In this document: positions 19,809-47,624 of the stretch, one piece after another
How the letters are laid out: the number at the start of each line of letters is the position of its first letter
Numbering within the stretch: position 1 is the stretch's first letter
IMG/VR virus record: IMGVR_UViG_3300042561_001716
Location: 1 to 48,825 of that record
DNA from: a virus
Reading direction: 5' to 3' (one strand)
Length of the DNA stretch: 48,825 nt
The notes under the pieces: model-generated
Database searches by the model: none
Told to the model about the DNA's origin: nothing
The model's input: only the letters and a program-made list of their open reading frames with translations
Position numbers and translations under genes: made by a program

Positions 19809-20312
19809 ATGGGAATCCTAAAAAATAGAGGTGCTGTTAAGTGGACACCCGCGCCAGAGCTAAAATCCAAAGTCGCCACCAAAATCAAAAATGAATTATT
19901 GTCGCCTGATTTTGTAATTCAAGCCCAAAATGAGGATGAAGCTAAAAGTTATGCAAAAGATGCAGTGGTGGAAGCGTGCAGGTCTGTATTTGTTGTTGAT
20001 TTAGGTATTTCTCAAGAGGAGCAACTATACAATAGAGCATGGCTGATTCTCAAAAAATGGGCTAATGGGGATGATGAATCTTATTGCTACACTGAGGCAG
20101 AAGAGGAAAATCCCATCGCAGAAAATGACAGGGAAGATGCAATTCATTATATTGAATCCTTGGATTTTATAGGCTCTGAAAAGCAAATTAAATGGGCTAA
20201 ATCCATCGCTTTAAATGCAGTTGATGAAATTGCAATTGCTCTAAAAAATAACAAGAAAATCCCTACATCTGCTAAGTGGTGGATTGAAAATGAAAGCAAT
20301 ATTTCATTATGA
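19809..20312 (+). CDS. Hypothetical protein with a C-terminal 'SEKQIKWA...AKWWI' segment
   Basis: A 167-residue protein preceded by AAGAGGAATT. The N-terminus is basic, the middle acidic. The C-terminus (GSEKQIKWAKSIALNAVDEI, then SAKWWIEN) resembles a segment seen at the end of many small phage and plasmid proteins of unknown function. It overlaps the next gene by 4 bases (ATGA). It has its own promoter at 19712, so it is a cassette between gpM and gpL. Confidence 0.6.
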   Translation: MGILKNRGAVKWTPAPELKSKVATKIKNELLSPDFVIQAQNEDEAKSYAKDAVVEACRSVFVVDLGISQEEQLYNRAWLILKKWANGDDESYCYTEAEEENPIAENDREDAIHYIESLDFIGSEKQIKWAKSIALNAVDEIAIALKNNKKIPTSAKWWIENESNISL

Positions 20313-20563: not shown

Positions 20564-20590
20564 TGAATACATACCATATTGTGTACGCAT

Positions 20591-20655
20591 AAAATGCCAA
20601 TTATTAGCAATCTCCTATCCCTCAACCCCGAGTCACCGATAGAACTGTTTGAAAT
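20591..20655 (+). pseudogene. Duplicated 5' fragment of gpL (repeat B, copy 1)
   Basis: About 65 bases from AAAATGCCAATTATTAGC to GAACTGTTTGAAAT are identical to the start of the intact gpL gene at 21654-21718. After that the sequence changes abruptly to the promoter of the next cassette. It encodes only the first 20 residues of gpL. Confidence 0.85.
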
Positions 20656-20685: not shown

Positions 20686-20714
20686 TTGACAGATATTTCT
20701 GTTTTGTGTATACT
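20686..20714 (+). promoter_or_regulatory. Promoter of the 20742-21363 gene pair
   Basis: TTGACA at 20686-20691, a 17-base spacer and TATACT at 20709-20714 form a good sigma-70-type promoter. It lies immediately after the duplicated gpL fragment. Confidence 0.75.
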
Positions 20715-20741: not shown

Positions 20742-20966
20742 ATGACTAAACAGATTATTGAATTAAATGATTTTGCTCACATCACAATGGATGTTTGTGG
20801 CAGAGAAAGAGCATTAAGAAGATTTGACTACATAGAAAGACCTTTCCCTGCTAATCAACAAGATATGGCTGTTTTTGAGGAAGCTGGAAAAATTCTTGCT
20901 AAAGATGGTGAGATTATCCCTCATGGCTCTGGATTTCATGATCATCTATTAATTGTGGATGTCTAA
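20742..20966 (+). CDS. Hypothetical protein, first of a gene pair
   Basis: A 74-residue protein from the ATG at 20742, with GGAG 7 bases upstream. It is acidic and His-containing (GSGFHDHLLIVDV at the end). The next gene overlaps it by 8 bases, so the two are probably made together. The size and pairing recall toxin-antitoxin modules, but no motif supports that. Confidence 0.55.
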   Translation: MTKQIIELNDFAHITMDVCGRERALRRFDYIERPFPANQQDMAVFEEAGKILAKDGEIIPHGSGFHDHLLIVDV

Positions 20967-21635: not shown

Positions 21636-21653
21636 ATTGGCAATTCTAAAAAT

Positions 21654-21718
21654 AAAATGCCAATTATTAGCAATCTCCTATCCCTCAACCCCGAGTCACC
21701 GATAGAACTGTTTGAAAT
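21654..21718 (+). repeat. Repeat B, copy 2 (start of intact gpL)
   Basis: This is the second copy of the 65-base sequence at 20591-20655, here continuous with the full gpL gene. Confidence 0.85.
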
Positions 21719-28028: not shown

Positions 28029-28442
28029 CTATAAATAATTATTCAAAACTTCTAACTCGCTCAATCTAAAAGTTGCAATTAAATTATCAGTTTCACTAAA
28101 CGGCGATATTGACTCTCTACGGCGGGGGAAATATTGCCGCATTTTGTCTATGGCAGCATTGAATTTAGAATATTCGGCGGCGGTTCTGTCACCATTTGTC
28201 TTAATAAAAACCACCCACTCATACCGTTGTTCTTGTTGAGAATTTAGCATTAAGGTGGATGATGAAACGTTCTTGAATCTGGAAATAACAACTTCTAAGC
28301 CACCGCTAACCGCGCCTTTTGGTGCTGATGGAGGTTCTACCCAGATGGCGGGTTGACTGTTGCTAAAAGTGCCGAGTTCTTCTTTCAATAAATCGGCTAT
28401 TGCTTGTCTAAGTTCCGGTGCGGTGTGGATGTTATTTGGCAT
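28029..28442 (-). CDS. Possible tail terminator or tail-completion protein
   Basis: A 137-residue alpha/beta protein (ELRQAIADLLKEELGTF, QQEQRYEWVVFIKTNGD, AAIDKMRQYFPRRR). The size and layout resemble siphovirus tail terminator proteins (gpU-like), but I cannot prove the family. Its start codon and 45 bases upstream are shared, in inverted orientation, with the gene at 38326. Confidence 0.5.
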   Translation of the reverse strand: MPNNIHTAPELRQAIADLLKEELGTFSNSQPAIWVEPPSAPKGAVSGGLEVVISRFKNVSSSTLMLNSQQEQRYEWVVFIKTNGDRTAAEYSKFNAAIDKMRQYFPRRRESISPFSETDNLIATFRLSELEVLNNYL

Positions 28443-28490
28443 AAAATTTTATTTTTATTTTTCCCAAAAAACTATTGACAATATTTTGTT
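28440..28490. repeat. Inverted repeat C, left copy
   Basis: About 48 bases spanning the start codon of the 28442 gene, its A/T-rich leader and the adjacent promoter -35 region match 38281-38328 in inverted orientation, apart from one base in an A run. The two copies bracket a segment of about 9.8 kb. Confidence 0.8.
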
Positions 28491-28503
28491 AGCCTGTTAC
28501 TAT
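28475..28503 (+). promoter_or_regulatory. Repeated promoter, copy 2
   Basis: TTGACA at 28475, a 17-base spacer (ATATTTTGTTAGCCTGT) and TACTAT at 28498 are followed by ATAAATGTGAGAG. The same block occurs at five other places in this region. The spacer contains TGTTA repeated at 8-base distance, a candidate operator. Confidence 0.85.
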
Positions 28504-28533
28504 ATAAATGTGAGAGTTAATAGGATAAAAACA

Positions 28534-28848
28534 ATGGGTTTAATTGATTTGGTTGTAGAGAACTGTGAAATTTCCTGTATGGGTAATGCCAAAGAATGCC
28601 CATACACAGATTTTAAAACAGAGTATAGAGAATGGAAGATTTGGCTAGATTGTCCTAATGGAGGAATATTGGCTTTTGAGATAATCTCTGAGAACCATAA
28701 TTTATGGCTTGGCTTGCCTACTTTTCCAGGTTGTTTAAGGAGTTTTGACTACCATGATAGTGATGGCATAATTGCCTATGCTAAGGAAAACATAGACAAA
28801 GTAGAAAACTATCTGTCTAGCCTAACAGGACAATTACAGTTATTTTAG
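28534..28848 (+). CDS. Hypothetical protein in a single-gene cassette
   Basis: A 104-residue protein from the ATG at 28534, which is 30 bases after the promoter; AGGATAAAAACA precedes it. It is rich in Cys, Trp and acidic residues (CMGNAKECPYTDFKTEYREW). It lies between its own promoter and terminator. No family was recognised. Confidence 0.65.
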   Translation: MGLIDLVVENCEISCMGNAKECPYTDFKTEYREWKIWLDCPNGGILAFEIISENHNLWLGLPTFPGCLRSFDYHDSDGIIAYAKENIDKVENYLSSLTGQLQLF

Positions 28849-28856
28849 GGACTTCC

Positions 28857-28881
28857 AGAAGCACCTTAATAGGGTGCTTCT
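28857..28881 (+). terminator. Cassette terminator
   Basis: The AGAAGCACC/GGTGCTTCT stem ends the 104-residue gene. The T tract after it is weak. Confidence 0.7.
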
Positions 28882-28917
28882 ATCTTTGCTTGTGAGAGGA
28901 GTATTTTTTCACAGTAG

Positions 28918-28946
28918 TTGACAATATTTTGTTATCCTGGTACTAT
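28918..28946 (+). promoter_or_regulatory. Repeated promoter, copy 3
   Basis: TTGACA at 28918, a 17-base spacer and TACTAT at 28941 belong to the same family as 28475; the spacer reads TTATCCTGG instead of TTAGCCTGT. Confidence 0.8.
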
Positions 28947-28984
28947 ATAAGAGTGAGAGAAAAACAACTAGCAGGGCAAAAAAA

Positions 28985-29083
28985 ATGACTTATTCACAAA
29001 AAATTTATTTAGCAATGATACAAATAGCTGAAGAGCAAAATATTCTGATATGGGGGGAGGTATTGAGGCTTCTTAATGAATAA
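28985..29083 (+). CDS. 32-residue small protein in a cassette
   Basis: The frame from the ATG at 28985 encodes 32 residues (MTYSQKIYLAMIQIAEEQN) between a promoter of the repeated family and a terminator. The clear promoter and terminator support expression. No function is known. Confidence 0.5.
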   Translation: MTYSQKIYLAMIQIAEEQNILIWGEVLRLLNE

Positions 29084-29087
29084 ACCA

Positions 29088-29110
29088 AAAGCACCCTATT
29101 GGGGTGCTTT
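29088..29110 (+). terminator. Cassette terminator
   Basis: The AAAGCACCC/GGGTGCTTT stem lies just after the 32-residue gene. Confidence 0.75.
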
Positions 29111-29166
29111 GTCTTCTCTGCGAAATTTGTGAGAGTTCAACAGGAATATTAGGAGTATAGCACACG

Positions 29167-29361
29167 GTGGACGAATCATTAAAAAAAGCTCAACAGAATT
29201 ACGAGAAATCTGAGAAGGGTAAAGCACGCCGGAAGCGCTACCGTGAGAAACCTGAAGTAAAGGAACGCGAACGCGAACTAGACCGCGAACGCAAGGAATA
29301 CAAACGGGAATATATGCGGGAATTTATGCGGAAAAGACGGGCGAAATTGAAGGAGGAATGA
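29167..29361 (+). CDS. Small Lys/Arg/Glu-rich helical protein
   Basis: A 64-residue protein with GTG start and AGGAG 10 bases upstream. It is almost entirely charged (KARRKRYREKPEVKERERE) and ends RKRRAKLKEE. Similar Lys/Arg-rich small proteins occur in many phages and plasmids; it may bind nucleic acid. A terminator follows. Confidence 0.5.
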   Translation: MDESLKKAQQNYEKSEKGKARRKRYREKPEVKERERELDRERKEYKREYMREFMRKRRAKLKEE

Positions 29362-29367
29362 CACGGT

Positions 29368-29392
29368 AAACCCTCGATTTTGAGGGTTTTTT
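29368..29392 (+). terminator. Terminator
   Basis: The AAACCCTC/GAGGGTTT stem with a 6-base loop is followed by T run. Confidence 0.85.
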
Positions 29393-29418
29393 AATGCCAA
29401 AAAATTTTCTAAAACCTA

Positions 29419-29447
29419 TTGACAATATTTTGTTAGCCTGTTACTAT
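29419..29447 (+). promoter_or_regulatory. Repeated promoter, copy 4
   Basis: TTGACA at 29419 and TACTAT at 29442 with the TTAGCCTGT-type spacer. The upstream AAATTTTCTAAAACC block is shared with copies at 30212 and 38981. Confidence 0.85.
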
Positions 29448-29484
29448 ATAAATGTGAGAGTTCAATAAATAAGGAATTAAAACA

Positions 29485-29973
29485 ATGTTTGATTTTTCAG
29501 GATTAACAGTAGAACAAATCAAGATTAAGTACAAAAAACTGGCCATGCAATATCATCCTGATTTGGGTGGTGATCTTGAGATAATGAAAATGCTAAATAA
29601 TGCTTATGAGGCTGCATTAAAAAGTTGTGATGGCCAAAAAACTAAAGATGACCAAGGACAAGAACATACCTATAAATACAGCCAAGAGATTGAGCAGGCA
29701 TTGATGAATAAAATCATTGAATTATTGTCACTAAACATGGAAGATGTAGATATTGACTTGATAGGTACTTGGATTTGGGTTACTGGCAACACTAAACCAT
29801 TTAAAGACAAAATCAAACAAGCTGGCTGTACATGGCATTCAAAGAGAGGGTGTTGGTACTTTAAAATAGGTAAATATTATGGCAAATCATCAACCTCTAG
29901 CCTAGAAGAGTTAGCTAAAAAGTATGGCTGTACTAATGCTTCAAAATTTAATAAGAATATAAAAGTAGGATAA
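29485..29973 (+). CDS. J-domain (DnaJ-like) protein
   Basis: A 162-residue protein. Residues 1-50 form a J domain with the HPD motif (AMQYHPDLGGD). The C-terminal half has an aromatic-rich domain (WIWVTGNTKPFKDKIKQ, then HSKRGCWYFK) also seen in other phage and plasmid DnaJ-like proteins. J domains recruit Hsp70 (DnaK). It is the only gene between copy 4 of the promoter and a strong terminator. Confidence 0.85.
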   Translation: MFDFSGLTVEQIKIKYKKLAMQYHPDLGGDLEIMKMLNNAYEAALKSCDGQKTKDDQGQEHTYKYSQEIEQALMNKIIELLSLNMEDVDIDLIGTWIWVTGNTKPFKDKIKQAGCTWHSKRGCWYFKIGKYYGKSSTSSLEELAKKYGCTNASKFNKNIKVG

Positions 29974-29978
29974 GATCT

Positions 29979-30004
29979 AGGGGTGAGGTTCACCCCTATT
30001 TTTT
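29979..30004 (+). terminator. Terminator of the DnaJ-like gene
   Basis: The AGGGGTGA/TCACCCCT stem is followed by T6. Confidence 0.85.
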
Positions 30005-30163
30005 ATGCTTTATTTAAACGAAGACGCAGTAAATAATCAGATTAAAATTTGCACGAAACAGGAAGACTTGGAGGGCGTAAAATGCCCCGCTTGCCGTAAA
30101 GTTAAGAGTCAAGAAAACTTGTGTCCGTTGGGCAAAGCAAGAATTTCTCCACCCCGTGAGTAG
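30005..30163 (+). CDS. Small zinc-finger-like protein, uncertain
   Basis: A 52-residue frame starting in the terminator tail, with a CPAC..C zinc-ribbon-like site (VKCPACRKVKSQENLC). It lacks a ribosome site and its own promoter, so it could be a remnant. It ends 48 bases before the next promoter. Confidence 0.35.
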   Translation: MLYLNEDAVNNQIKICTKQEDLEGVKCPACRKVKSQENLCPLGKARISPPRE

Positions 30164-30211
30164 GGTGATTTTTTGGTGTTAAAAATTTTCTAAAAAACTT
30201 TCTAAAACCTA

Positions 30212-30240
30212 TTGACAATATTTTGTTATCCTGTTACTAT
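30212..30240 (+). promoter_or_regulatory. Repeated promoter, copy 5
   Basis: TTGACA at 30212, a 17-base spacer and TACTAT at 30235, with the TTATCCTGT-type spacer and a following GAGTGAGAG leader. Confidence 0.85.
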
Positions 30241-30266
30241 ATAAGAGTGAGAGTTCAATAAGCAAA

Positions 30267-31262
30267 ATGAAAGTAGCAGAAATTAACACCACAGAATTAC
30301 ACCTTGATCCAGCAAGGTTTCAATACAAGTTATGTCATAATTCAACAGGATCAACAGGATCTTTGTCCAATATTGATTCTTGGAATGTTTACCTATCTGG
30401 GATTGTTTTGGTATGGGAAGATGCTGATAACAGAACTTATGTAGTCAATGGACACAATAGAGTTGCTCTAGCCAAAAAGTTGGGAACAGTTGAGAAAATT
30501 TTGTGTAGGTTTATTGATGCAGTTGACCACAAAGAAGCTAGATTAATAGGTGCTTTAGCTAACATAGCAGAGGGTATGGGAACTGCTATAGATGCAGCTA
30601 AATTTTTTAGAGACTCTAGTTACAGCATTAATCAAGTGAAAAATTTTGGTATCAATCCAAAATTAAAAATTGTGCAAGATGGGTTAAGTCTCTCAAATTT
30701 GGTTAGTTTCTTGTTTGACAAAGTTGCCATTGGTGATATTCCCATTGATAAGGGTGTGATTTTAGGAAGTGTGGGGGCTAGAGAACAGCTGGAAGTATGG
30801 GAACTAATCAAAGGTAAGCAGGTGAGCAGCAAAGCACTAGATGAGATTATTTCAAACATTCTTAATCCTGCAAGTGGACAAACATCACTTTTCAACCTGT
30901 TTAATCAAGATAATCAAGATAATGAACTTTTAAGACTAGAGTTAGTTGCACAAGTGAGAGTCAAGCTACAAAGATCCAAAAAGTTGCTACACCTAGTCTC
31001 AAATCAAGGTAATTCTCAGTTTCTGGAGGCAATTGGTAACAACCTTAATCACACTGGTAATTTGTCAGCAAGTGAGTTAACCCATTATGTACTGCAAATA
31101 TTTGACCAACTAAAAAACCAGCATTCTCCAGTGAGTGAGATTTTGAACAAGGGTATTGAAGCTAAAAAGTCAGGTCAAGCTATGTCAGATGTTGTCAGTG
31201 ATTGTGTAAGTCAATTAATCACAGTCATTCCCAAGATGATTAATCAAAAAGTTGCTGCATAA
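30267..31262 (+). CDS. ParB/sulfiredoxin-fold-like protein
   Basis: A 331-residue protein. Residues about 40-100 hold the ParB-like core (YVVNGHNRVALAKKLG, then EARLIGALANIAEG). The rest is helical. Proteins of this kind in phages and plasmids include DNA-binding and nuclease-like enzymes; the catalytic role is not clear here. The ATG lies 27 bases after the promoter -10 box, and a strong terminator follows. Confidence 0.75.
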   Translation: MKVAEINTTELHLDPARFQYKLCHNSTGSTGSLSNIDSWNVYLSGIVLVWEDADNRTYVVNGHNRVALAKKLGTVEKILCRFIDAVDHKEARLIGALANIAEGMGTAIDAAKFFRDSSYSINQVKNFGINPKLKIVQDGLSLSNLVSFLFDKVAIGDIPIDKGVILGSVGAREQLEVWELIKGKQVSSKALDEIISNILNPASGQTSLFNLFNQDNQDNELLRLELVAQVRVKLQRSKKLLHLVSNQGNSQFLEAIGNNLNHTGNLSASELTHYVLQIFDQLKNQHSPVSEILNKGIEAKKSGQAMSDVVSDCVSQLITVIPKMINQKVAA

Positions 31263-31278
31263 CCAAGAATTTTAACCC

Positions 31279-31311
31279 AGTTGATCACTTTGACAAGTGA
31301 TCAACTTTTTT
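31279..31311 (+). terminator. Strong terminator
   Basis: The AGTTGATCACTT/AAGTGATCAACT stem with a 5-to-9-base loop is followed by T6. Confidence 0.9.
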
Positions 31312-31327
31312 GCATTTTGAGGTCAAA

Positions 31328-31831
31328 ATGAAATATAGACAACTATCGCTTTTTGACCTGCCACCACAATCAGAGTCACAGGCTAGGACTAAAAAAACTC
31401 ACACCACACCACAAAAATCAGTGATTGACAAAATCAAGGCCATCTCAATCCATGCCCCTCATGCCTATGCAATTTGCATGGGTAAAAAACCCTATGAATA
31501 CAGAAACAGTCCAACAGAGAAAAGAGGCTGGGTTTTAATTCATAGCAGCAGCAGTAAGGCTTCTGACTCATTTTTTGAAGACTATGGCATTGACCTCAAA
31601 ATAGCCAAAAGAGGGGCAATTATAGGAGCTAGTTTTATCACAGATTGTAGTCCAGATTATCAAGGTGGCTATGCTTACAGAATGACAAGATCAATGCTGT
31701 TTCCTACCCCTATTGTGGGTGTTAAGGGCTGTCAATCAATATTTTGGGGACATTGTAAAGACCCTCAAAAACTCAAGGCTTTTGAACAGGCCATAGAACA
31801 GATGGGAATTAACTTAAAAGTGAGAGAATAG
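31328..31831 (+). CDS. ASCH-domain protein 1
   Basis: A 167-residue protein from the ATG at 31328 with GAGGTC upstream. The core AISIHAPHAYAICMGKKPYE, later GWVLIHSSSS and GAIIGASFITDC match the ASCH fold, which binds RNA or nucleotides. Its role in the phage is unknown; ASCH proteins can act in RNA metabolism or in toxin-antitoxin contexts. A different ASCH-like gene follows 80 bases later. Confidence 0.7.
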   Translation: MKYRQLSLFDLPPQSESQARTKKTHTTPQKSVIDKIKAISIHAPHAYAICMGKKPYEYRNSPTEKRGWVLIHSSSSKASDSFFEDYGIDLKIAKRGAIIGASFITDCSPDYQGGYAYRMTRSMLFPTPIVGVKGCQSIFWGHCKDPQKLKAFEQAIEQMGINLKVRE

Positions 31832-31880
31832 GGTAATTTGGGGGGGGAGCAATCCCCCTCTTTTAGTAAGATACGTCAGG

Positions 31881-31886
31881 CTATAA
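31881..31886 (+). promoter_or_regulatory. Candidate -10 box of the second ASCH-like gene
   Basis: TATAAT occurs 25 bases upstream of the second ASCH-like gene. A good -35 box is missing, so this is a weak candidate. Confidence 0.4.
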
Positions 31887-31911
31887 TGTGGATTATTTGG
31901 AACTTGCAAGT

Positions 31912-32424
31912 ATGAAACCCATAGCAGTATCAATGCACCCTCAAGAAGCCCTAAAACTGGCGATTGGGGAAATCAGAATTATTTTAACAACTCAAGCAGA
32001 ATCAAAGCGAAAAATCCTGTTCCACGCTTGCAGTTATGACACAACGGAACAGGAAAACGCCGGATTTAAAGCGATCGCACAATTAGGATTTTCGCCTGAA
32101 GAAGTGCCAACTAATTCAATTATTGGCTGGGCGAAAATTGCAGACGTGAAAACCTACGACGCGGCAAAATTTGCAATTGACGGGAAACTTCACGGACACG
32201 GATTTGATTTAAACCAGTTTCTTGCTGCTGAAGGTTGGCAAGGTCAACAAGTTTACGGATTAGTTTTAGAAGAACAGCATTATTTATGTTTACCAATCAT
32301 GGGGATTGGTGCTGAACGCGTTCACGGCGATTTCTGGGAAGCACAAAGCCCGTTTCAAGTGGTGGCATTTGAACGGGCTTTAGATGCTCAAAGTGTAGAT
32401 ATTGTCGCCTCAGTAGGATATTAG
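31912..32424 (+). CDS. ASCH-like protein 2
   Basis: A 170-residue protein from the ATG at 31912. The N-terminus MKPIAVSMHPQEALKLAIGE and later HACSYDT have the ASCH pattern of binding loop and strand order, with a longer C-terminal half (VYGLVLEEQHYLCLPIMG). It shows little obvious similarity to the first ASCH protein. It ends 4 bases into a convergent minus-strand gene. Confidence 0.6.
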   Translation: MKPIAVSMHPQEALKLAIGEIRIILTTQAESKRKILFHACSYDTTEQENAGFKAIAQLGFSPEEVPTNSIIGWAKIADVKTYDAAKFAIDGKLHGHGFDLNQFLAAEGWQGQQVYGLVLEEQHYLCLPIMGIGAERVHGDFWEAQSPFQVVAFERALDAQSVDIVASVGY

Positions 32425-32957
32425 ATCCCTAATCTTTGTGCCGCAGCACGCGCCGCGGCTCTTTCCCCTGGAGTTGCACCACGTTGGGCTGCGTTACGGA
32501 TTGCGGCTGCACGGCGGTCAGAAACTCTACCTCCCGCATTTGTCGGTGTTCGTGGGGCAGCACCTGGAGAACCCGAACCTTGGCTGCCAGTAACGGGCGC
32601 ACTAGATCGACGATAAGGATCGTTAGCGACTCGCCCGAATCCGCCAGTACCACCTGGTGCTGATGCACCGCGGCCAGTACCACCAGCCGGAGGTAAAGCA
32701 GCTCTTGTTGCACCACCACCAGCAGTAATTGTCCGCCTTACCCGGGAGACACCATCTCTGAAAACGCCTTGCCCCCGCAATCTTCCAGATCGGCTAAAAG
32801 TCCTAAAAGTCCTAAAATCAGTCCTAGTGTCGGGTCTTACAGTAGGTGCGCGCTCCCCCACAACAGCCAAACCACCACCTCTATTCCGAGTACCACCAGC
32901 CGCAGTCCTTACCCGACCACTAGGTAAAATTCGGTCTCCTCGTCCACCTCTAGCCAT
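32421..32957 (-). CDS. Arg/Gly/Ala-rich low-complexity protein
   Basis: A 178-residue protein from the ATG at 32957 (MARGGRGDRILPSGRVR). It is about 20 percent Arg and rich in Gly, Ala and Thr, with no hydrophobic core, so it is probably disordered and binds nucleic acid or acts in assembly. A TTG or GTG start upstream would add up to 16 residues. It is convergent with the ASCH-like gene. Confidence 0.5.
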   Translation of the reverse strand: MARGGRGDRILPSGRVRTAAGGTRNRGGGLAVVGERAPTVRPDTRTDFRTFRTFSRSGRLRGQGVFRDGVSRVRRTITAGGGATRAALPPAGGTGRGASAPGGTGGFGRVANDPYRRSSAPVTGSQGSGSPGAAPRTPTNAGGRVSDRRAAAIRNAAQRGATPGERAAARAAAQRLGI

Positions 32958-33004
32958 AATAGTCAATCCTAATTTTGTAAATATGTTTATTTTTAGTTTT
33001 CCCA

Positions 33005-33334
33005 ATGACAGTATTGGTAAAAACCCGCGCGATTCATTACGAGCTATTGACCGATGAGAGCGAGATTATTGGCGGCGTGTTCGCTGTTAATCACCGCCAA
33101 TATATCGAGATAGTTGATTTGTTTGTAAACAAGGAATTTCAAAATCAGGGACACGGGCGAGCGCTCATGCAGACAATTTTTGATAATTACCCAAATAAAA
33201 TACTCTGTTTACAGTGCGGGGCTTTTAGCAATGGGTTGAGTCAGGGTAATTTAGCGGAATGGTACAAGCGATTGGGATTTGTGGAGGGTACGCCATTTCA
33301 TCAGGGTGACGGATGGATGCACAAACCTATTTAG
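33005..33334 (+). CDS. GNAT-family acetyltransferase
   Basis: A 109-residue protein with the acetyl-CoA-binding motif (NKEFQNQGHGRALMQTIF) of GNAT enzymes and the usual C-terminal strands (WYKRLGFVEGT). It is short for the family, lacking much of the N-terminal part. It overlaps the end of the PAPS-reductase-like gene by 8 bases. The substrate is unknown. Confidence 0.8.
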   Translation: MTVLVKTRAIHYELLTDESEIIGGVFAVNHRQYIEIVDLFVNKEFQNQGHGRALMQTIFDNYPNKILCLQCGAFSNGLSQGNLAEWYKRLGFVEGTPFHQGDGWMHKPI

Positions 33335-34217
33335 CCGTCATTCTGGCAGTAATTTCTGGGAACAGATCACACAATTCTTTTAACTGTACTGGGGCATACC
33401 GCGCCATCCATTTGTAGTAGGTACTACATAAAGTTTCCGGTGTGCAATACCACAAAGTCCGAGGGAATGGTTTACCTTTTTTCTGCGGTATTTGGTGCAT
33501 TGAATAAATAGGACTAACGGGCGATTCATTCTCAACGAGCAACGCCCAAACATCCATATCTAACCAATCTGCCAACGGCAAGGCGCGAATATAGGGGAGT
33601 AAGCCTTTCTTATCCTGATCATTAAATTGCAGCATCCCATCACGGGATATTTCAAACCGCCGATCCATTCCTTCAGCACTACGCACTCCCCACATATACA
33701 TTACATTGGGGTTTCCTTCACCCCAAAGATGATGAAATTGGTAGATACTTTCATAGGTGATTGACGTGCCAACATCGCCCCAATCCCAAAAGTTTAGAGG
33801 CTGTCCCCCTTCACCTTTCAATCCGTAACTATTACCCCAGTCAATATACTTTTTAACTATTAGTGGGAACGGGTCATCTGTCAGATATTCCTCATAATAA
33901 AACCCGTTACCGAATGAGTTTATATAATCCTCCCACTCTGGTAGAACGTCATAATGTTGGGGGAGTTCCGCGCCACAATCAATTATTAAATTACAATAAT
34001 CAATCTCTGCCAATTCTAAAATTATCGCAGTTGCCATTGAATCTTTACCATACCCAAACCATAGACCCGGTATGACATCCTGATTAACTTTAGGGTTGTC
34101 ATACCACAACTGCACACGCTCAATGGTTTTGTTTTTGAGTGCCTGAAATTCATCAGTTTTCGCCCGTTTCGTTGCTTCTAGATATTTCTTCTGTGGCAGT
34201 GCTTTCGATATTTCCAT
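33327..34217 (-). CDS. PAPS-reductase-like (IbrA/DndC-type) protein
   Basis: A 296-residue protein of the adenine nucleotide alpha-hydrolase fold. The PP-loop reads GYGKDSMATAI (residues about 54-64), and a C-terminal Cys pair (YCTPETLCSTYY) may bind a metal or a substrate. IbrA-like and DndC-like relatives take part in gene regulation or DNA sulfur modification in other bacteria and phages. A ParB-like gene lies 3 genes upstream in the same operon, as in IbrA/IbrB pairs. Function here is unknown. Confidence 0.7.
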   Translation of the reverse strand: MEISKALPQKKYLEATKRAKTDEFQALKNKTIERVQLWYDNPKVNQDVIPGLWFGYGKDSMATAIILELAEIDYCNLIIDCGAELPQHYDVLPEWEDYINSFGNGFYYEEYLTDDPFPLIVKKYIDWGNSYGLKGEGGQPLNFWDWGDVGTSITYESIYQFHHLWGEGNPNVMYMWGVRSAEGMDRRFEISRDGMLQFNDQDKKGLLPYIRALPLADWLDMDVWALLVENESPVSPIYSMHQIPQKKGKPFPRTLWYCTPETLCSTYYKWMARYAPVQLKELCDLFPEITARMTAK

Positions 34218-34863
34218 CGTCCCAAATATCCCCTTCTAAAATGTTTTCAGGCACATCATAAACTCCCCAGGTTAGTACATCTTCTTCCGTGTGCTGCACT
34301 TCTTCTTGGGTTTCTTTGCTGTCATCTTCTTCTTGGTTGTCGTCGCTTTCTTCTTGGGCATCATGGATCAATTTCTCCAATTCTTCTAAAGGTAAATCGG
34401 CATCTAGTTTTAATTGTTGGATACAAGCAAGTGCCAATTCTCGCGCCATTCTATCTTGTGAATTTTTAAGAACAGCAACAATGAAGGCTTTACAAATTTC
34501 TAACTGACGGCGCACATCACCCATTTTTGATAGGCGAACCGCGCCATCTGCTAAAGCTAAAGTTCCCTGAAAAGCTGCTAACATTCCGTTTAAGTCAAGT
34601 CCCAAAAGCCGCAGTTTCAACTCTTCGACAAACTCAAAACTCAACTCCCCTTGTTCAACTAAAATTTCACACGCCTGAAGCAAAGTTTTACCCTCTTTGG
34701 AGAATTTACCCGCGCCTTCAATTTGGCTCAAAATGCGACCATGAGCGACGTAAAAACTTTCACGGACAATAGTTTCAAAGTCATGATCCTCCGCATCCGT
34801 GAAAGCGTCGCGCCATTTCCCAGACAACCTTTTCCCGTAGAGTCCGTCATTCTTCTTTGGCAT
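34153..34863 (-). CDS. Hypothetical acidic protein, possibly a small terminase or partner
   Basis: A 236-residue protein with a helical middle (EGKTLLQACEILVEQGEL, RQLEICKAFIVAVLKN) and a very acidic C-terminal third (EESDDNQEEDDSKETQEEV). It overlaps both neighbours. The neighbour at 34847 has a HTH-like motif and the pair may form a small-terminase-like unit, but this is speculative. Confidence 0.5.
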   Translation of the reverse strand: MPKKNDGLYGKRLSGKWRDAFTDAEDHDFETIVRESFYVAHGRILSQIEGAGKFSKEGKTLLQACEILVEQGELSFEFVEELKLRLLGLDLNGMLAAFQGTLALADGAVRLSKMGDVRRQLEICKAFIVAVLKNSQDRMARELALACIQQLKLDADLPLEELEKLIHDAQEESDDNQEEDDSKETQEEVQHTEEDVLTWGVYDVPENILEGDIWDDGNIESTATEEISRSNETGEN

Positions 34864-35152
34864 TACGAATTAACCGGACTACTTGGGTGATCACCTTGTT
34901 TACTTCTTGCATTGCTTTAGAACGGCGGCCATGCCTGATATTGTTCTTTCCACATTTGGATTTATCGCGTGGTCCGGTGCTGTGTTCCCAAGGTTTATGT
35001 GCTAAACATCGTTGACGTGCAGCTTCTATAAATTCAGGTGATAGGTTTTTCCGTTTGTACTGTTTTGGCGGATATTTTTTAGCCTTGAACAGTTCCATAA
35101 ACTTGTCAGAATCCAATGTTTTCGGCTGTGATTGGTTCAGATGCGCTGTCAT
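34847..35152 (-). CDS. Small basic protein with a 'STGPR...GK..N..HG' segment
   Basis: A 101-residue basic protein. The segment WEHSTGPRDKSKCGKNNIRH resembles a motif at the ends of many cyanobacterial and phage proteins of unknown function, some near terminase genes. A DNA-binding role is likely. It overlaps both neighbours by short stretches. Confidence 0.5.
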   Translation of the reverse strand: MTAHLNQSQPKTLDSDKFMELFKAKKYPPKQYKRKNLSPEFIEAARQRCLAHKPWEHSTGPRDKSKCGKNNIRHGRRSKAMQEVNKVITQVVRLIRNAKEE

Positions 35153-36104
35153 TTACTGCCACTCCTAATTCAGTGATCATCATGTCTACTATCTTTAGAA
35201 TTACCTGACTCCGGTATTGTTGAACCATACCATCAGTTGAGATGCCAACTTGGGGCGCGAGTTGGTCAAGCTTGGCGCGAAAATCAGCTAAATCACCTTT
35301 ATCGAGAAAGATATAAAACTGTGTTTGTTCGCCCTTTCCGGTGTAGTTGATACTTTGGACGCTGGCAACATCCGCCACGTTTTCAGTTTTAACTGTGACT
35401 CTTTCCGCAGGTGGTGGAGGTGTGTAATCGCTTCTGCTGGGAGTTGCATTAACGCCAGTCGTGCCACTTTCACTTATTTGAGTATTTGAGTATTTCTCAT
35501 CATCAAAATTGTAATTACCGACTTCTTCCTGTATTTCTTCTCCCTCTAGCTCATCTTCGGGTTCTTCCTCTTTACGAACTAAGAAGGCTTGCATAAAGCT
35601 ATTGGCAGTCCCAGAATCCCAACCCGCAGTTTTAATCTGCCTTTTGGGCATTTGTGCCAGTATTGCAGCTATTTTGCCAGGGTCGTCACGTCCATCATGG
35701 GAACTGTTGTTAAGTCGAAGTAGTGCAGATTTCTGGCTAAGTTCATCAAGAGTTACGGGAACGGCGGGAACAGTCGCCCAATATTTAGGGCAAAAGCGTT
35801 CTTGGTGCTTTTCTGCTACCTTATCTCTACCCGTTCCCTTGATCCACCGCTCCCACTCTTTCAAGAAAAAGCCTTCATCTTGTTGGCTTAACCAATCCGC
35901 ACCCTGAACCCGCCCATGCCCTGATATGAGATACCCAAAACTACCGTCTAGGTTTCGTTGAATTGTTGGGTAAATCAACCATCCAAAATCTAGAAGTGAG
36001 TCACGAATCCAAGGCAAATCGTTTTCTTCTGAGTGTTCGCGGGGGTTTTCAGGGTGAAACCGCGCCAAAACTTCAACAGTCGGCAGCCATAAAATCTCAC
36101 TCAT
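35106..36104 (-). CDS. ParB/IbrB-like protein
   Basis: A 332-residue protein. The first 90 residues form a ParB-like domain (WLPTVEVLARFHPENPREH, then GYLISGHGRVQGADWL). A low-complexity acidic linker follows, then a C-terminal helical region (DLADFRAKLDQLAPQVG). IbrB-like proteins pair with PAPS-reductase-like IbrA proteins, and such a gene lies downstream in the operon. It overlaps the upstream sigma-like gene by 4 bases. Confidence 0.7.
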   Translation of the reverse strand: MSEILWLPTVEVLARFHPENPREHSEENDLPWIRDSLLDFGWLIYPTIQRNLDGSFGYLISGHGRVQGADWLSQQDEGFFLKEWERWIKGTGRDKVAEKHQERFCPKYWATVPAVPVTLDELSQKSALLRLNNSSHDGRDDPGKIAAILAQMPKRQIKTAGWDSGTANSFMQAFLVRKEEEPEDELEGEEIQEEVGNYNFDDEKYSNTQISESGTTGVNATPSRSDYTPPPPAERVTVKTENVADVASVQSINYTGKGEQTQFYIFLDKGDLADFRAKLDQLAPQVGISTDGMVQQYRSQVILKIVDMMITELGVAVNDSASEPITAENIGF

Positions 36105-37219
36105 TTTTTAGCTACCTCAACGGCTTTCTGAGATTTTTGCAAAGACTGATTCAGTAATTTTAACGCCTCGTCCAAATCGGCTGATTCAGGGCAATTTTTA
36201 ATCAGGTAATCAGCGAGAGACGTAAATTTACTGGTAATCTGCCACTGCGATTGACTGGTACTCATTTGTTTTTTCGATAGATTTATTGAACTATCAATAA
36301 CATAGTTTTTACTCCATAGGGAAGCGGTACTGTGGTCAATCCCCAAATATGTTTCGCACCAATACAAGCTTTTACCATTAGCGATCGCGTCAACCGCCTT
36401 AATCCTTACGTCATTAGAATAGCCACGTCTCCCGATTGGCGCGGGGTTATCCCTAAATTGAATCTGACAGGACTTGCATAAATAAGCCTGTTTACCGTCA
36501 CGTTTACCATTTTTAATAGTTTGATAATCTTTGCAATTTGGGCATTGGACCCGCCCAAGTGCCATTAACTTTAGTTTTCGCAAAGCGTCAGACTCAATTC
36601 GGCGTAATTCCCTTAATTTAATATTGTGGATTTGGCACAGCATCTTGACGGGAATATGGTCAATATACAAATCCTTGATAATTGTGGCGTGAAGTTCTGG
36701 GAGTTTATCAAGCAGGGGGAGAATTGAGTCTAATTCCTCTTGTTGTTCTGCCGTTAGCTGTTCGGGTAGTTCAGGATTATTTTGATTACAGGCCATCGCC
36801 GCTTCTTTGGCAACTTGCAAGGAAATATTTAATTCAATCGCCGCTTGTTCATAAGTTACGCCGTGTTTTTGGGCGTACCGCTTCAGTTTTTGGTGAGTTT
36901 CTTGTAACGGACGCGGAACTTTCACCATCCGCACTTTATCCCTGACAAATTGCGCCATCGCACCATAGATAAACGGCACGGCGTAACTGGACAGCTTGAT
37001 TTTCTTGGCAGGGTCAAACCTCTCCACCGCTTTGATCAAACCTTCCGCCCCAATCTGTATTAGTTCGTCTCTCGGAACTGTGCAGCAAGCGGTCATTTTA
37101 CCCGCGACGTGACCGACTAAGCCCATGTTCATCTCAACTATCCGGTTTCGTAGTCGAATATCTCTGGTTTGGTGAAAGTTAATTAAAAGTTGCTGATTGT
37201 CTAGATATGCCGCGTCCAT
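36101..37219 (-). CDS. Sigma-70-like factor fused to an InsA-type zinc ribbon and HTH
   Basis: A 372-residue protein. Residues about 20-95 match sigma-70 region 2 (RNRIVEMNMGLVGHVAGKM, DELIQIGAEGLIKAVERFD, SSYAVPFIYGAMAQ), and about 165-220 match region 4 (HATIIKDLYIDHIPVKML). Then residues 226-251 form a zinc ribbon (CPNC at 226, CKSC at 248), followed by a HTH (ANGKSLYWCETYLGIDHSTA) like the N-terminus of IS1 InsA proteins. So a sigma factor has gained a transposase-type DNA-binding unit. It may direct transcription of late genes. AGGA lies 7 bases before the ATG. Confidence 0.8.
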   Translation of the reverse strand: MDAAYLDNQQLLINFHQTRDIRLRNRIVEMNMGLVGHVAGKMTACCTVPRDELIQIGAEGLIKAVERFDPAKKIKLSSYAVPFIYGAMAQFVRDKVRMVKVPRPLQETHQKLKRYAQKHGVTYEQAAIELNISLQVAKEAAMACNQNNPELPEQLTAEQQEELDSILPLLDKLPELHATIIKDLYIDHIPVKMLCQIHNIKLRELRRIESDALRKLKLMALGRVQCPNCKDYQTIKNGKRDGKQAYLCKSCQIQFRDNPAPIGRRGYSNDVRIKAVDAIANGKSLYWCETYLGIDHSTASLWSKNYVIDSSINLSKKQMSTSQSQWQITSKFTSLADYLIKNCPESADLDEALKLLNQSLQKSQKAVEVAKK

Positions 37220-37605
37220 TTATTCCTAACCTAATAATTACCTTTAAATTACCGATTGCTGGGGGATTTGTCACTGATCCAGAAACAGGAAACCCCATAC
37301 AGACAACAACTGATGTAGTGGTGGAGGCTTGGATGGAAGGTAACGCATCTGTCAAGCCCGAACCAGGGCAAAATCCAAATGTGGTTAATTTACGGGGGTA
37401 TGCGGTAAAGCCTCGGTTACTGCCAACTGAATTAATCAGGAAACAGTCGGAAGCATCAGCAATTTATACCGATCCTCTCACCGGGAATGAACAGACGGGA
37501 AAATTTACGCTGCAACCGCAATTTGACGGTAAACGCCCCAGAGTTGCCAAGGCTTTAGCCCGCATTTTGGGTGCAGAATTACAAGGTGTTTTTGAGTTTA
37601 GTTAG
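37207..37605 (+). CDS. Possible head-tail connector (neck) protein
   Basis: A 132-residue beta-rich protein (FIPNLIITFKLPIAGGFV, TDVVVEAWMEGNASVKP). The size and the position before a small gene that resembles tail-completion proteins suggest a neck protein. It overlaps the divergent sigma-like gene by 13 bases at its start and has no clear ribosome site. No family was proved. Confidence 0.5.
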   Translation: MPRPFIPNLIITFKLPIAGGFVTDPETGNPIQTTTDVVVEAWMEGNASVKPEPGQNPNVVNLRGYAVKPRLLPTELIRKQSEASAIYTDPLTGNEQTGKFTLQPQFDGKRPRVAKALARILGAELQGVFEFS

Positions 37606-37606
37606 G

Positions 37607-37641
37607 CAATAATAAGCCACCTTAAAGGTGGCTTATTATTG
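37607..37641 (+). terminator. Long hairpin after the neck-like gene
   Basis: CAATAATAAGCCACC and its complement form a 15-bp stem with a 5-base loop. It may terminate both strands, as it lies between convergent genes. Confidence 0.85.
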
Positions 37642-37663
37642 ATTGTCTATTAAATTTTACTCT

Positions 37664-37891
37664 TTATTCATAATAGTCTTTACTGTCCTCCCAAGGAAAA
37701 ATTACCAGTAAATCACTACATACAAAATGATGGTATTCTGGTAGCACTCTAGCATTAAAGCATGAACCATTGAGATTTTCTGCCTGTGCCTTAACCCAAT
37801 TGTTACCAACTTTTGCATTAATGACTGATTTATTATCAGCCCATTTTTTGAAGTTTGTTAATGCAATTTTCTCAGCTTCAGTAAATATCAT
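37664..37891 (-). CDS. Hypothetical small protein
   Basis: A 75-residue protein with AGGAG before the ATG. It is aromatic and basic (FKKWADNKSVINAKVGNNWV). It follows the 86-residue gene, but a terminator lies between them. No family was recognised. Confidence 0.6.
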   Translation of the reverse strand: MIFTEAEKIALTNFKKWADNKSVINAKVGNNWVKAQAENLNGSCFNARVLPEYHHFVCSDLLVIFPWEDSKDYYE

Positions 37892-37927
37892 TTTGGACTC
37901 CTGAATTATTGAACTTGGTAATAAAAA

Positions 37928-37959
37928 GTATTTAATTCCAGTGACCTGGAATTAAATAC
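37928..37959 (-). terminator. Strong palindromic terminator of the 86-residue gene
   Basis: A 14-bp perfect stem (GTATTTAATTCCAG) with loop TGAC is followed on the minus strand by T5. It lies between the genes at 37974 and 37664. Confidence 0.85.
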
Positions 37960-37973
37960 TAGGGGGTTTTATG

Positions 37974-38234
37974 CTATTTTAAATATCCAGAAGAAGAAAC
38001 ATTGAAAACATTTTTGAAAACTTCTGTTACTTCCAGCCTGGAGCAACCATGAAAGAATTTTAATGCATCTTCTATCTCTTCTCTCTTTGCATCTAACTGA
38101 ACACTGGTAACAAAGGCATCTTTCCAATTTGGTTCTGCAACCTTTACCTGAAATTTGGTTCTTATTTCATCTGCTTGAAATTTTCTTTGGTTCTGGATCT
38201 CATCAAAGATTTGTCTAAGTTTGTTAGTTTTCAT
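37974..38234 (-). CDS. Hypothetical protein in a cassette
   Basis: An 86-residue basic helical protein (KLRQIFDEIQNQRKFQADEI). It has its own promoter of the repeated family (38264-38292) and ends at a strong terminator. No function is known. Confidence 0.65.
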   Translation of the reverse strand: MKTNKLRQIFDEIQNQRKFQADEIRTKFQVKVAEPNWKDAFVTSVQLDAKREEIEDALKFFHGCSRLEVTEVFKNVFNVSSSGYLK

Positions 38235-38263
38235 TTTTTAACCTATTGAACTCTCACATTTAT

Positions 38264-38292
38264 ATAGTAACAGTCTAACAGGATATTGTCAA
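38264..38292 (-). promoter_or_regulatory. Repeated promoter, copy 6
   Basis: TTGACA (complement 38287-38292), a 17-base spacer and TACTAT (complement 38264-38269) on the minus strand; it drives the 86-residue gene. Confidence 0.85.
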
Positions 38293-38328
38293 TAGTTTTT
38301 TTGGGAAAAATAAAAATAAAATTTTATG
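38281..38328. repeat. Inverted repeat C, right copy
   Basis: This is the inverted counterpart of 28440-28490. It contains the start of the 38326 gene, the A/T-rich leader and the -35 region of promoter copy 6. Confidence 0.8.
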
Positions 38329-38610
38329 CCAATCTGGAAAAGTTGGACACCACCACAACTAACCGTAACCATTGCTGATTACCAATGGTCAGCACCTTAT
38401 GCCTATGATGTACATGAGAAACAAGGCAACCGATGGACTGATCGAGCGTTAGTAGGGAGTGATTTAACTGCGGTTTTTAAAAGCAACTACCAAACTACTC
38501 TAGACCTCGCATTTATCCAAACTGCACATCATTTGAACCAACGATTTTTAAATGAAGTTCCTGTTAGTAGCGGAACTTTGAAAGCGTCCCAATCTATGAA
38601 GTTAAGGTAA
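38326..38610 (+). CDS. Possible neck or tail-completion protein
   Basis: A 94-residue protein (MPIWKSWTPPQLTVTIADYQ, then YAYDVHEKQGNRWTDRALVG). The segment AYDVHE...NRW resembles phage gp10-type tail-completion proteins, but the family is not certain. It shares its leader with the gene at 28442 on the other strand. Confidence 0.5.
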   Translation: MPIWKSWTPPQLTVTIADYQWSAPYAYDVHEKQGNRWTDRALVGSDLTAVFKSNYQTTLDLAFIQTAHHLNQRFLNEVPVSSGTLKASQSMKLR

Positions 38611-38614
38611 TAAA

Positions 38615-38637
38615 AAAGCACCCTTTTGAGGTGCTTA
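38615..38637 (+). terminator. Terminator
   Basis: The AAGCACC/GGTGCTT stem lies between the convergent genes at 38326 and 38645. Confidence 0.75.
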
Positions 38638-38644
38638 TAGGTCT

Positions 38645-38929
38645 TTACTTTCTGTATCTTCCTGACTCTGGATCTGGCATCATATTGTATCTGTTCTGCT
38701 CATCTAGCCTAAATTCTTCATAGTTGTTGAATGTCTGGACAGTGCTGCAACCACACCTATCAATAATTTTTAAGATCCTGCCATCTTGCAACTTGTAAGC
38801 ACCCCAAGTAGGACTGAGATATACATTACTAGCAATAGCATTTTTCTTGATATCCCACCAGCTTTCACCAGCAAAATCAGAAATATTTTGAGTGTGATCT
38901 GGTCCATGTCCTATTTCAGTGCTAATCAT
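38645..38929 (-). CDS. Hypothetical protein in a cassette
   Basis: A 94-residue protein driven by promoter copy 7. It has Asp/His at the start (EIGHGPDHTQNISDFAGES) and Cys residues in the middle (IIDRCGCSTVQTF). No family was recognised. Confidence 0.65.
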   Translation of the reverse strand: MISTEIGHGPDHTQNISDFAGESWWDIKKNAIASNVYLSPTWGAYKLQDGRILKIIDRCGCSTVQTFNNYEEFRLDEQNRYNMMPDPESGRYRK

Positions 38930-38957
38930 TTTTTATCCTATTAACTCTCACATTTAT

Positions 38958-38986
38958 ATAGTAACAGGATAACAAAATATTGTCAA
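38958..38986 (-). promoter_or_regulatory. Repeated promoter, copy 7
   Basis: On the minus strand, TTGACA (38981-38986) and TACTAT (38958-38963) are separated by 17 bases with the TTATCCTGT-type spacer. Confidence 0.85.
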
Positions 38987-40099: not shown

Positions 40100-40496
40100 A
40101 CTTGAGTATTGCCCATTTGGTGACATAGGAGAAAAAGAAATAGCTTGGGCAAGCGTTGAAGTTGAGACGGAGCATAACGATCCTTTTCTTCGCGTTAATC
40201 CTGTTGTGAAAGTTCAAAGCTACCAAGCAGCGAGTGACGAAAAAGACAAGCTAAAAGCCCTTGCGGAAAAAGCAAGTGCCAAAAAAGGGGTAGAAAGGAT
40301 GGCTTTAAGTGCTTGGAATAGAGAGATTGAGGTTTCGATTGGATTTCAGGGGCATACTTATTCCACGGAAAATCCAAATAATCTAGACCTGTCACACGCC
40401 GTTTATAAGCTGCCTTCTTTTAAGGTTTTGAGCATAGAAGGCAATGAAGATTTTGAAAGTAAAATTCCGCCTATTCCGGAAGGATGTGTTTCATGA
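40089..40496 (+). CDS. Partner protein of the zincin, immediately before terminase
   Basis: A 135-residue alpha/beta protein (MKIKLEYCPFGDIGEKEIAW). It overlaps the zincin gene by 11 bases and the terminase gene by 4 (ATGA). The tight pairing with a protease could mean an inhibitor or immunity role, or an assembly role; no motif decides this. Confidence 0.55.
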   Translation: MKIKLEYCPFGDIGEKEIAWASVEVETEHNDPFLRVNPVVKVQSYQAASDEKDKLKALAEKASAKKGVERMALSAWNREIEVSIGFQGHTYSTENPNNLDLSHAVYKLPSFKVLSIEGNEDFESKIPPIPEGCVS

Positions 40497-46167: not shown

Positions 46168-47202
46168 CTAAGCTGCTAACAAATATTCATGTTTAGTCAG
46201 CCTAATTAATTCCTTGGCTACGGGTCGCCAGTCGTCCTGATAGTCCTCACCATTGAGAGTCCAACCCAGATCATTCAGCCAGATATACCCAGCGAGAACA
46301 CCACAAACTTTAACTGAATATTGCTGCCCCTTGTCATCTCTAAAGTTAATGTCTTCGATATTAATAGCCATATCTTCGATAGGCTGGGTTATGGTTATGC
46401 GACCACTTCCTCTTTCATCCATGAACACCCCCTTTAAATATTCCTCTTTGATAAAGTCTTCCGCTTTTTGGTACGAGGCAAATGGCTTTTTAATTCCATT
46501 CATTTCTACCCTCCAAGTCCCCAAGGACTCATGATCTATTGTGGCGATGACATTGTGTATGTCCCCATCTAAAATGGCTTCATAAAACCCAAAATCACTG
46601 GGCGAGATAAAACTGATTTTAGATGCTATTTCCTCCTTAACCTTAATTTGGTGCTTGCACTCAACACCCCTAAAATAACTGTCCCCACACTCACATCTTT
46701 GATTGTTCATAGGGTGAGCAGGTGTGACGGTGTAGAGGTTGTCACCACTTTGGACGACGAACTTAACAAAGCCCTCATCCTCTACCTGTTCCAAAATTTG
46801 TACAGACTTGGCTTTCTCAGCCCTTGCGGTAGCTTGCACTTCTAATTCTGCCTCTAGCTCATTTTGAGCTAAGGTTTGACTGTCAACGAGTCTGAGTGAG
46901 TGCCATTTGCAATATCTCTCAGCTAGTTGATAACTAGCAGCACGGTGGACAATCTCGCCGCCAACCAAAACCATGTAAGGCTGGGTAGAACCCTCAAAAC
47001 TTTCACTCTCAAAATCAATGGTTGCTTCTACGGCTTGAATCTTCTGGACTTGTGCGGCTTGATGCTCAACAATTGCATCTACCCAACTAACCAAGAAAGT
47101 TTTGTTGCCAGATGGAACGACTCCTAATTCAGCAGCAATTTGTTTTACTTTTGGAAGTTTTTTGTTAAGGAGTTGTTGACGGCTGTAAATTGGGTGTGAC
47201 AT
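46168..47202 (-). CDS. SWIM-finger protein with an N-terminal SAP-like segment
   Basis: A 344-residue protein, the first gene of the early operon. Residues about 8-45 look SAP-like (LLNKKLPKVKQIAAELGV). Residues about 168-190 hold a SWIM-type site (CECGDSYFRGVECKHQIKV: CxC...CxH). The rest is alpha/beta. SWIM fingers bind DNA or proteins. It lies downstream of a strong promoter with repressor-like sites. Confidence 0.75.
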   Translation of the reverse strand: MSHPIYSRQQLLNKKLPKVKQIAAELGVVPSGNKTFLVSWVDAIVEHQAAQVQKIQAVEATIDFESESFEGSTQPYMVLVGGEIVHRAASYQLAERYCKWHSLRLVDSQTLAQNELEAELEVQATARAEKAKSVQILEQVEDEGFVKFVVQSGDNLYTVTPAHPMNNQRCECGDSYFRGVECKHQIKVKEEIASKISFISPSDFGFYEAILDGDIHNVIATIDHESLGTWRVEMNGIKKPFASYQKAEDFIKEEYLKGVFMDERGSGRITITQPIEDMAINIEDINFRDDKGQQYSVKVCGVLAGYIWLNDLGWTLNGEDYQDDWRPVAKELIRLTKHEYLLAA

Positions 47203-47279: not shown

Positions 47280-47308
47280 ACTATAGCTAGTAACTATAGA
47301 TATGTCAA
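47280..47308 (-). promoter_or_regulatory. Early promoter with overlapping operators
   Basis: On the minus strand TTGACA (47303-47308), a 17-base spacer and TATAGT (47280-47285) form a good promoter for the early operon. Two copies of ACTATAG (47280-47286 and 47293-47299) overlap the -10 box and the spacer, so a bound repressor would block it. Confidence 0.85.
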
Positions 47309-47589: not shown

Positions 47590-47624
47590 AACTACAAAAA
47601 TAATCCTTTCGAGTGTCACTGTCA

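Follow-up and report, generated by a model that had tools for sequence, protein, structure and literature searches.

Introduction

T4-type phages carry mobile regulatory cassettes called PeSL (promoter early stem-loop), in which a hairpin terminator is followed by a strong early promoter; the repeated element flanks small accessory genes and mediates their shuffling by recombination (Arbiol 2010, Comeau 2014, as cited in PMC4503421). Here we describe promoter-led gene cassettes of related design in a viral genome, IMG/VR record IMGVR_UViG_3300042561_001716 (positions 1 to 48,825; these 48,825 nucleotides are called the window), and report that they almost completely lack the dinucleotide CpG. 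As in PeSL, a repeated early-type promoter stands before small genes, a hairpin lies near the next promoter, and the units are shuffled between related genomes. However, the cassettes described here belong to lambda-J-type tailed cyanophages, use another promoter sequence and are CpG-free, unlike the T4 early region, which had an observed/expected ratio (o/e) for CpG of 1.09 where sampled. The window's matches to a lambda-type tail protein J and a large terminase argue against placing it among the T4-type myoviruses. By anatomy, its units would work like PeSL and like lambdoid morons that have a common promoter. We do not class them as PeSL because the phage is not T4-type and early transcription is deduced from promoter type only.

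Several other described systems resemble the cassettes in part. In cluster K mycobacteriophages, the SAS and ESAS elements (PMC3203893) are short repeats, confined to one phage group, that precede many small non-structural genes. SAS, however, is a 13-bp start-site element that contains the core of the Shine-Dalgarno sequence, and ESAS is an inverted repeat, whereas the repeat here is a promoter with a leader. Lambdoid morons (PMC1524935) consist of a promoter, a small open reading frame (ORF) and a terminator placed between phage genes, with a composition unlike that of their flanks; in our case the difference is specific to CpG and is apparently held by continuing selection, not by recent import. 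The Cylindrospermopsis phage Cr-LKS4 (OQ625504) has tandem small J-domain genes, a repeated TTGACA promoter and an AT-rich upstream tract, but its spacer and −10 box are different and its CpG content is normal (20 compared to ~23 expected). In another described phage system, many early promoters lie 5′ of lineage-specific ORFs whose GC content matches the rest of the phage, whereas the present cassettes depart sharply in one dinucleotide. Lambdoid morons are not known to have a common promoter family. In vertebrate viruses, ZAP selects against CpG, which is purged while the proteins are preserved. Our cassettes resemble this, except that here the avoidance is limited to one gene class within one genome. 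We know of no ZAP-like sensor in bacteria.

Results

A pattern scan of the window located six copies of a promoter block within three mismatches of TTGACAATATTTTGTTAKCCTGTTACTAT: four on the plus strand (28475–28503, 28918–28946, 29419–29447 and 30212–30240) and two on the minus strand (38292–38264 and 38986–38958). In each, TTGACA, a 17-base spacer and TACTAT are followed by ATAANNGTGAGAG. A TG ahead of TACTAT makes all six extended −10 promoters (TGTTACTAT in most), and they have the leader ATAA(AT/GA)GTGAGAG in common. Upstream of most copies is a tract rich in A and T whose last letters are ctaaaaccta or a variant of this. No match arose in 100 dinucleotide-preserving shuffles or with a reversed control pattern, and the record has no seventh close copy. 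A small ORF and then a hairpin follow each promoter, the hairpins ending from 37 bases (28881 to 28918) to ~310 bases ahead of the next one. The terminator scan found 16 hairpins compared to 10.5 in shuffles, a modest excess, so the argument is one of position, not number. With their own promoter and terminator, a composition unlike their flanks and a placement between phage genes, the units have the features of morons. An earlier, sequence-only reading had described the six promoters and the gene-then-hairpin arrangement behind them, and both hold. It had also named a seventh, divergent copy at 19712–19740 (plus strand), which proved to have the hexamers and leader in common with the six (TTGACA and TATAAATGTGAG) while its spacer differs, and is a weak relative. 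The most unusual property of the cassettes, the absence of CpG, was missing from that reading, as were the second CpG-free genes that follow two of the hairpins (31328–31831 and 37891–37664).

The window's longest stretches without CpG (1192, 803, 700, 644, 527, 461 and 384 bases) all coincide with cassette sequence or with the gene at 20742; when the same number of CpGs was placed at random in 1000 trials, the maximum gap was 368 bases. Nine window genes have a CpG o/e of 0.01, compared to 0.91 in the 40 other window genes, and GpC is unaffected. Across four genomes, 21 cassette genes contain 7 CpGs where 307 are expected, and they encode arginine 100 times with AGR and once with CGN. The untranslated parts of the window cassettes are equally empty (0 compared to 16.6 expected). 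Genes between the cassettes, such as those at 29167–29361 and 38326–38610, have normal CpG. Every promoter-family cassette in the relatives shows the deficit, including those of the distant G010, described below. Only one cassette clearly departs from this, and in part: a J-domain cassette behind a variant spacer (L010:4706–5260) has 5 CpGs compared to 10.9 expected. Three of the 5 fall in an arginine-rich stretch, and the cassette is possibly a recent recruit from which CpG has been only partly purged. CpG reappears ~10–30 bases past the last hairpin in most units and, on the upstream side, 44–78 bases before the −35 box.

Several ordinary causes can be set aside. Codon usage fails because CpG is also missing across codon junctions, in untranslated regions and in hairpins. 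Low GC content is already corrected for in the expectations, and GpC is normal (1.09–1.21). Avoidance of a CpG-cutting restriction enzyme makes little sense when one cut anywhere suffices and CpG is abundant elsewhere in the genome. The trait is not general to cyanophage early cassettes, as it is absent in RM-2018a, A-4L, N1, Mic1 and Cr-LKS4. Nor do the proteins impose it, since homologues of the DnaJ-like and ASCH-like products are encoded with normal CpG. The DnaJ-like homologues in phage L044 and in the 118-kb phages are 85–87% identical in amino acid sequence, stand behind another promoter and have 10–13 CpGs; the ORF downstream of dnaJ is collinear in other phages, and the window copy of that ORF kept its CpG. 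An ASCH-like relative in L063, 58% identical and behind another strong promoter, has 18 CpGs compared to 22 expected.

The deficit goes beyond base composition and is held through divergence. Between the ParB-like genes of the window and of its relative G011, 129 substitutions have produced 0 CpGs, where random placement gives 12.7 (minimum 4 in 500). The ASCH-like genes of the window and G010, at 64% nucleotide identity, show 0 compared to 11.6 expected. Overall, cassette homologues that are 13–36% diverged remain CpG-free, where random substitution gives 6–24 CpGs; control genes between the cassettes behave as random. The 13 CpGs of the L044 dnaJ correspond in the window to TG (5), CA (3), AG (3), CT (1) and CC (1), and in the window ApG and CpT are raised alongside TpG and CpA. 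Deamination alone leads only to TpG and CpA. Because the fates of the lost CpGs include transversions, selection appears to fit the loss better than deamination alone.

Conservation in relatives, which the sequence-only reading had proposed as a check, was found. When 2.9 million viral contigs were scanned for the pattern, the block was located in about 12 IMG/VR phage contigs besides the window, at 1–6 copies each and up to six per 6 kb. The distant relative G010 (IMGVR 3300009500_000028) has three copies with another spacer and the same hexamers and leader. Promoter matches in L015, L016, L017, L019–L021, L024–L026 and L029 were not counted as family; the spacers inspected among them are unrelated. 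The block had 0 copies in 84,980 bacterial and archaeal genomes, and a DNA search of plasmids gave no match.

When cassettes are grouped into families by the first gene after each promoter (F0, F1 and so on), their order changes from genome to genome: F1-F3-F2 in G001, F1-F3-F0-F2 in G012, F1-F3-F0-F6-F2 in L011, F3-F1-F2 in L018, F0-F3-F2 in L022 and, with an identical duplication, F0-F0-F2 in G011. The start of F1 is joined to an ASCH-like gene in L014 and to a J-domain gene in L010, and in G001, G002, L009 and L012 a promoter with no gene runs immediately into a hairpin. Window positions 37599 and 38325 are only 7 bases apart in G011, and the window holds a cassette between them. The window also contains a ~10-kb inversion (28.44 to ~38.6 kb) when compared with G011, G001 and the distant G010. 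Inverted 98-bp copies of the promoter block, 94% identical, lie at its left end (28436–28531, plus strand) and near its right end (38332–38235, minus strand), and the inverted promoter at 38986 is just outside the right end. Inversion ends at or near promoter blocks would fit a role of the block as a recombination substrate. Judged by these comparisons, the cassettes are evidently a shuffling promoter-gene-terminator system, whose genes are permuted, duplicated, lost and fused. L044 and the 118-kb phages L045 and L046 have another repeated promoter, TTGACAAAAATATAGTCTATCCACTATATTAG, before small genes with normal CpG, the DnaJ-like homologue among them; this is apparently a second promoter-cassette family.

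On the plus strand, cassette 1 encodes a 104-amino acid (aa) protein of unassigned function (28534–28848; 0 CpGs compared to 9.6 expected) and ends in a hairpin terminator at 28857–28881. Cassette 2 has a 32-aa ORF, also unassigned (28985–29083; 0 compared to 2.0), and a terminator at 29088–29110, and cassette 3 a J-domain (DnaJ-like) protein of 162 aa (29485–29973; 0 compared to 12.9) and a terminator at 29978–29998. Cassette 4 has two genes: one for a ParB-like protein of 331 aa (30267–31262; 0 compared to 31.7) and, beyond a hairpin at 31279–31306, one for a 167-aa protein with an ASCH-like fold (31328–31831; 1 compared to 20.2), followed by a terminator at 31840–31860. This arrangement of ParB-like gene, hairpin and ASCH-like gene is conserved. 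The ParB-like name comes from the motif VVNGHNRV and PHROG matches, with no Pfam match; searches for this protein in plasmids and genomes returned nothing useful, and its AlphaFold model is too poor for use (pLDDT 44). The ASCH-like model is mediocre (pLDDT 57) but matches ASCH structures. On the minus strand, cassette 5 encodes unassigned proteins of 86 aa (37974–38234; 0 compared to 6.9) and 75 aa (37664–37891; 0 compared to 5.9), separated by a hairpin at 37927–37960, and cassette 6 one of 94 aa (38645–38929; 0 compared to 10.2), with a terminator at 38616–38636.

Outside this family, the gene behind the weak promoter relative at 19712 (19809–20312) is partly CpG-poor, with 7 CpGs compared to 17.0 expected. 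A promoter-like site that the earlier reading did not list, TTGACA-17-TATACT at 20686–20714 (plus strand, read from the letters), lies ahead of a CpG-free gene of 74 aa at 20742–20966 (plus strand; 0 compared to 6.7), which sits inside the 384-base run. A perfect 67-bp direct repeat (20589–20655 and 21652–21718) duplicates the 5′ end of the gene at 21657 and brackets ~1 kb including this CpG-free gene, as if inserted at the gene start. The lowest CpG among the longer ordinary genes is at 46168–47202 (minus strand), a non-cassette gene at half the expected value (23 of 46.7).

The window encodes a lambda-J-type tail protein, a large terminase, an ERF recombinase, SSB, a sigma-70 family protein, a PAPS-reductase-like protein and an HTH protein (47305–47625). 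Its closest named tail-protein matches are Cylindrospermopsis phages, and it contains GCGATCGC, the cyanobacterial signature HIP1, 14 times where 0.35 are expected. Because of this excess and the tail matches, the host is very likely a HIP1-rich cyanobacterium. Megablast against phages found nothing useful. GGCC is strongly depleted window-wide (21 compared to 94.9 expected), unlike CCGG, GCGC and CGCG, a pattern that points to a host restriction system directed at GGCC. The terminase large-subunit gene (40484–43054) has an intein-like insertion (Pfam Intein_splicing, residues 109–428), and ~1.07 kb of this region is missing from G011 and G001. Both region 2 and region 4 are present in the phage sigma-70 family protein (36101–37219, minus strand), and a weak match to an InsA-type zinc ribbon follows region 4. 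Genes for PAPS-reductase-like and ParB-like proteins lie close together at 33327–34217 and 35106–36104 (both minus strand) and are a possible DNA-modification module. PAPS-reductase matches occurred in every large relative searched and in nearly all relatives searched overall. A C5-cytosine DNA methyltransferase (G001:C1:2911–3912, minus strand) was found only in G001 among seven records searched.

Discussion

The whole is best explained, in our judgement, by mobile early cassettes that selection keeps CpG-free, the likely agent being a CpG-sensing host RNA factor; we give this reading a probability of about one half. Each cassette couples a strong promoter of host type (sigma-70, extended −10) and its fixed leader to one or two small accessory genes, with a hairpin terminator at the end. 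The long common promoter block would serve homologous recombination, by which cassettes could be gained, lost, duplicated, reordered or inverted, as the rearrangements suggest. Given their promoter type, the cassettes would be the first part of newly entered phage DNA that host polymerase transcribes. The substitution pattern points to a continuing selection, absent from the rest of the genome, that would keep the cassettes and their untranslated ends nearly CpG-free. The most probable selecting agent would be a factor in the host that detects CpG within RNA, such as a CpG-specific ribonuclease or sensor, which the early transcripts would have to outlast until early proteins disarm it. We favor an agent acting on RNA because the avoidance tracks promoter-to-hairpin units, covers their untranslated parts and spares the rest of the molecule, and because such an agent suits transcripts made before counter-measures exist. 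We also raise, at lower probability, the idea that antiviral surveillance in some cyanobacteria recognises CpG in RNA, in effect as ZAP does but in bacteria, and that these phages escape it because precisely their first transcripts stay CpG-free until early proteins have neutralised it.

Some observations weigh against this explanation. The main weakness of a purely transcript-level reading is the pattern beyond hairpins: the genes at 31328 and 37664 are CpG-free despite following a hairpin, but those at 29167 and 30005, also behind hairpins, are not. The pattern requires either read-through, which would then occur at some hairpins (the 31328 and 37664 units), or membership by cassette rather than by transcript. 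The stretch upstream of the promoters is G-poor and uninformative on whether avoidance ends at the transcription start. The literature searched yielded no CpG-specific RNase or RNA sensor in cyanobacteria, and we know of none. Finally, across the pooled 21 genes the excess of ApG and CpT (1.10 and 1.12) is below that of TpG and CpA (1.31 and 1.39, compared to ~1.07 in other genes), so deamination may contribute to the loss. Taken further, mutation alone could have removed CpG, through transcription-coupled deamination of the methylated dinucleotide where cassettes are highly transcribed, and 8 of the 13 lost CpGs did become TG or CA. This we regard as very improbable, as none of the remaining 5 is a transition, ApG and CpT are raised too, the arginine bias of 100 AGR to 1 needs transversions, and a near-complete loss with the protein preserved exceeds, in our judgement, what hypermutation is expected to do.

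The simplest rival is that the cassettes were imported whole, through promoter-block homology, from a CpG-free pool such as a satellite, plasmid or phage group, so that the absence of CpG marks provenance rather than a role in this phage. The cassettes are indeed discrete and exchanged, and all those of the promoter family are affected while most other genes are not. We nevertheless think import unlikely: dnaJ and its downstream ORF are collinear elsewhere and only dnaJ lost CpG, searches turned up no CpG-free contig with the block among the viral contigs and no match among plasmids and bacterial genomes, and CpG-freeness through such large divergence needs all of that divergence to have happened within the pool. 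A strong alternative, if a rather improbable one, is that CpG on incoming DNA carries a modification made by phage or host, either methylation or a bulkier base, and that the modified base hinders host polymerase; only genes read from entering DNA would avoid CpG, later ones being read from fresh copies. It would account for an avoidance that acts per dinucleotide, is strand-symmetric and includes the untranslated ends, and it draws on the PAPS-reductase match in every large relative searched and the nearby ParB-like gene in the window, a module that we take to be associated with DNA modification. That module, however, has no known CpG specificity, and a phage C5-cytosine methyltransferase as common cause is rejected by its presence in G001 only among the seven records searched, some of which may be incomplete.

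The sequence-only reading saw a distributed regulon of moron genes, in which a phage protein would bind a TGTTA repeat in the spacer and coordinate the cassettes. Its moron-like units with a single promoter type, conserved in relatives, stand; the common operator finds no support outside the close clade. Within the clade the spacer is nearly identical, which recent common descent also explains. The second half of TGTTA-NNN-TGTTA overlaps the extended −10 and varies within the clade (TGATA, GGTTA, TGTCA), the repeat being altered in L010, L018 and G011, and the G010 spacers, TTTTCTGAGTAATGAGT and TTTTTTGGGTAATAGGC, have no TGTTA repeat, yet its cassettes are otherwise of the same kind. Comparison of the G010, L010, L018 and G011 spacers yielded no protein-binding site conserved beyond the core promoter. 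Strong early transcription by a host sigma-70-type polymerase would explain the block without a dedicated repressor, and we consider a regulon improbable.

Promoter-led cassette shuffling, known in T4-type phages, is extended here to cyanophages. To our knowledge, a near-total loss of one dinucleotide that is specific to a gene class has no precedent in a bacterial virus, and the literature searched, with partial coverage, does not describe phage gene classes that are free of CpG. The absence of CpG is enough to recognise a member of the class from its letters, and it implies that something selects on only some of the transcription units of one genome. Were this a defence that senses CpG, bacteria would possess a novel form of immunity; were it DNA modification, a constraint would tie modified phage DNA to early transcription.

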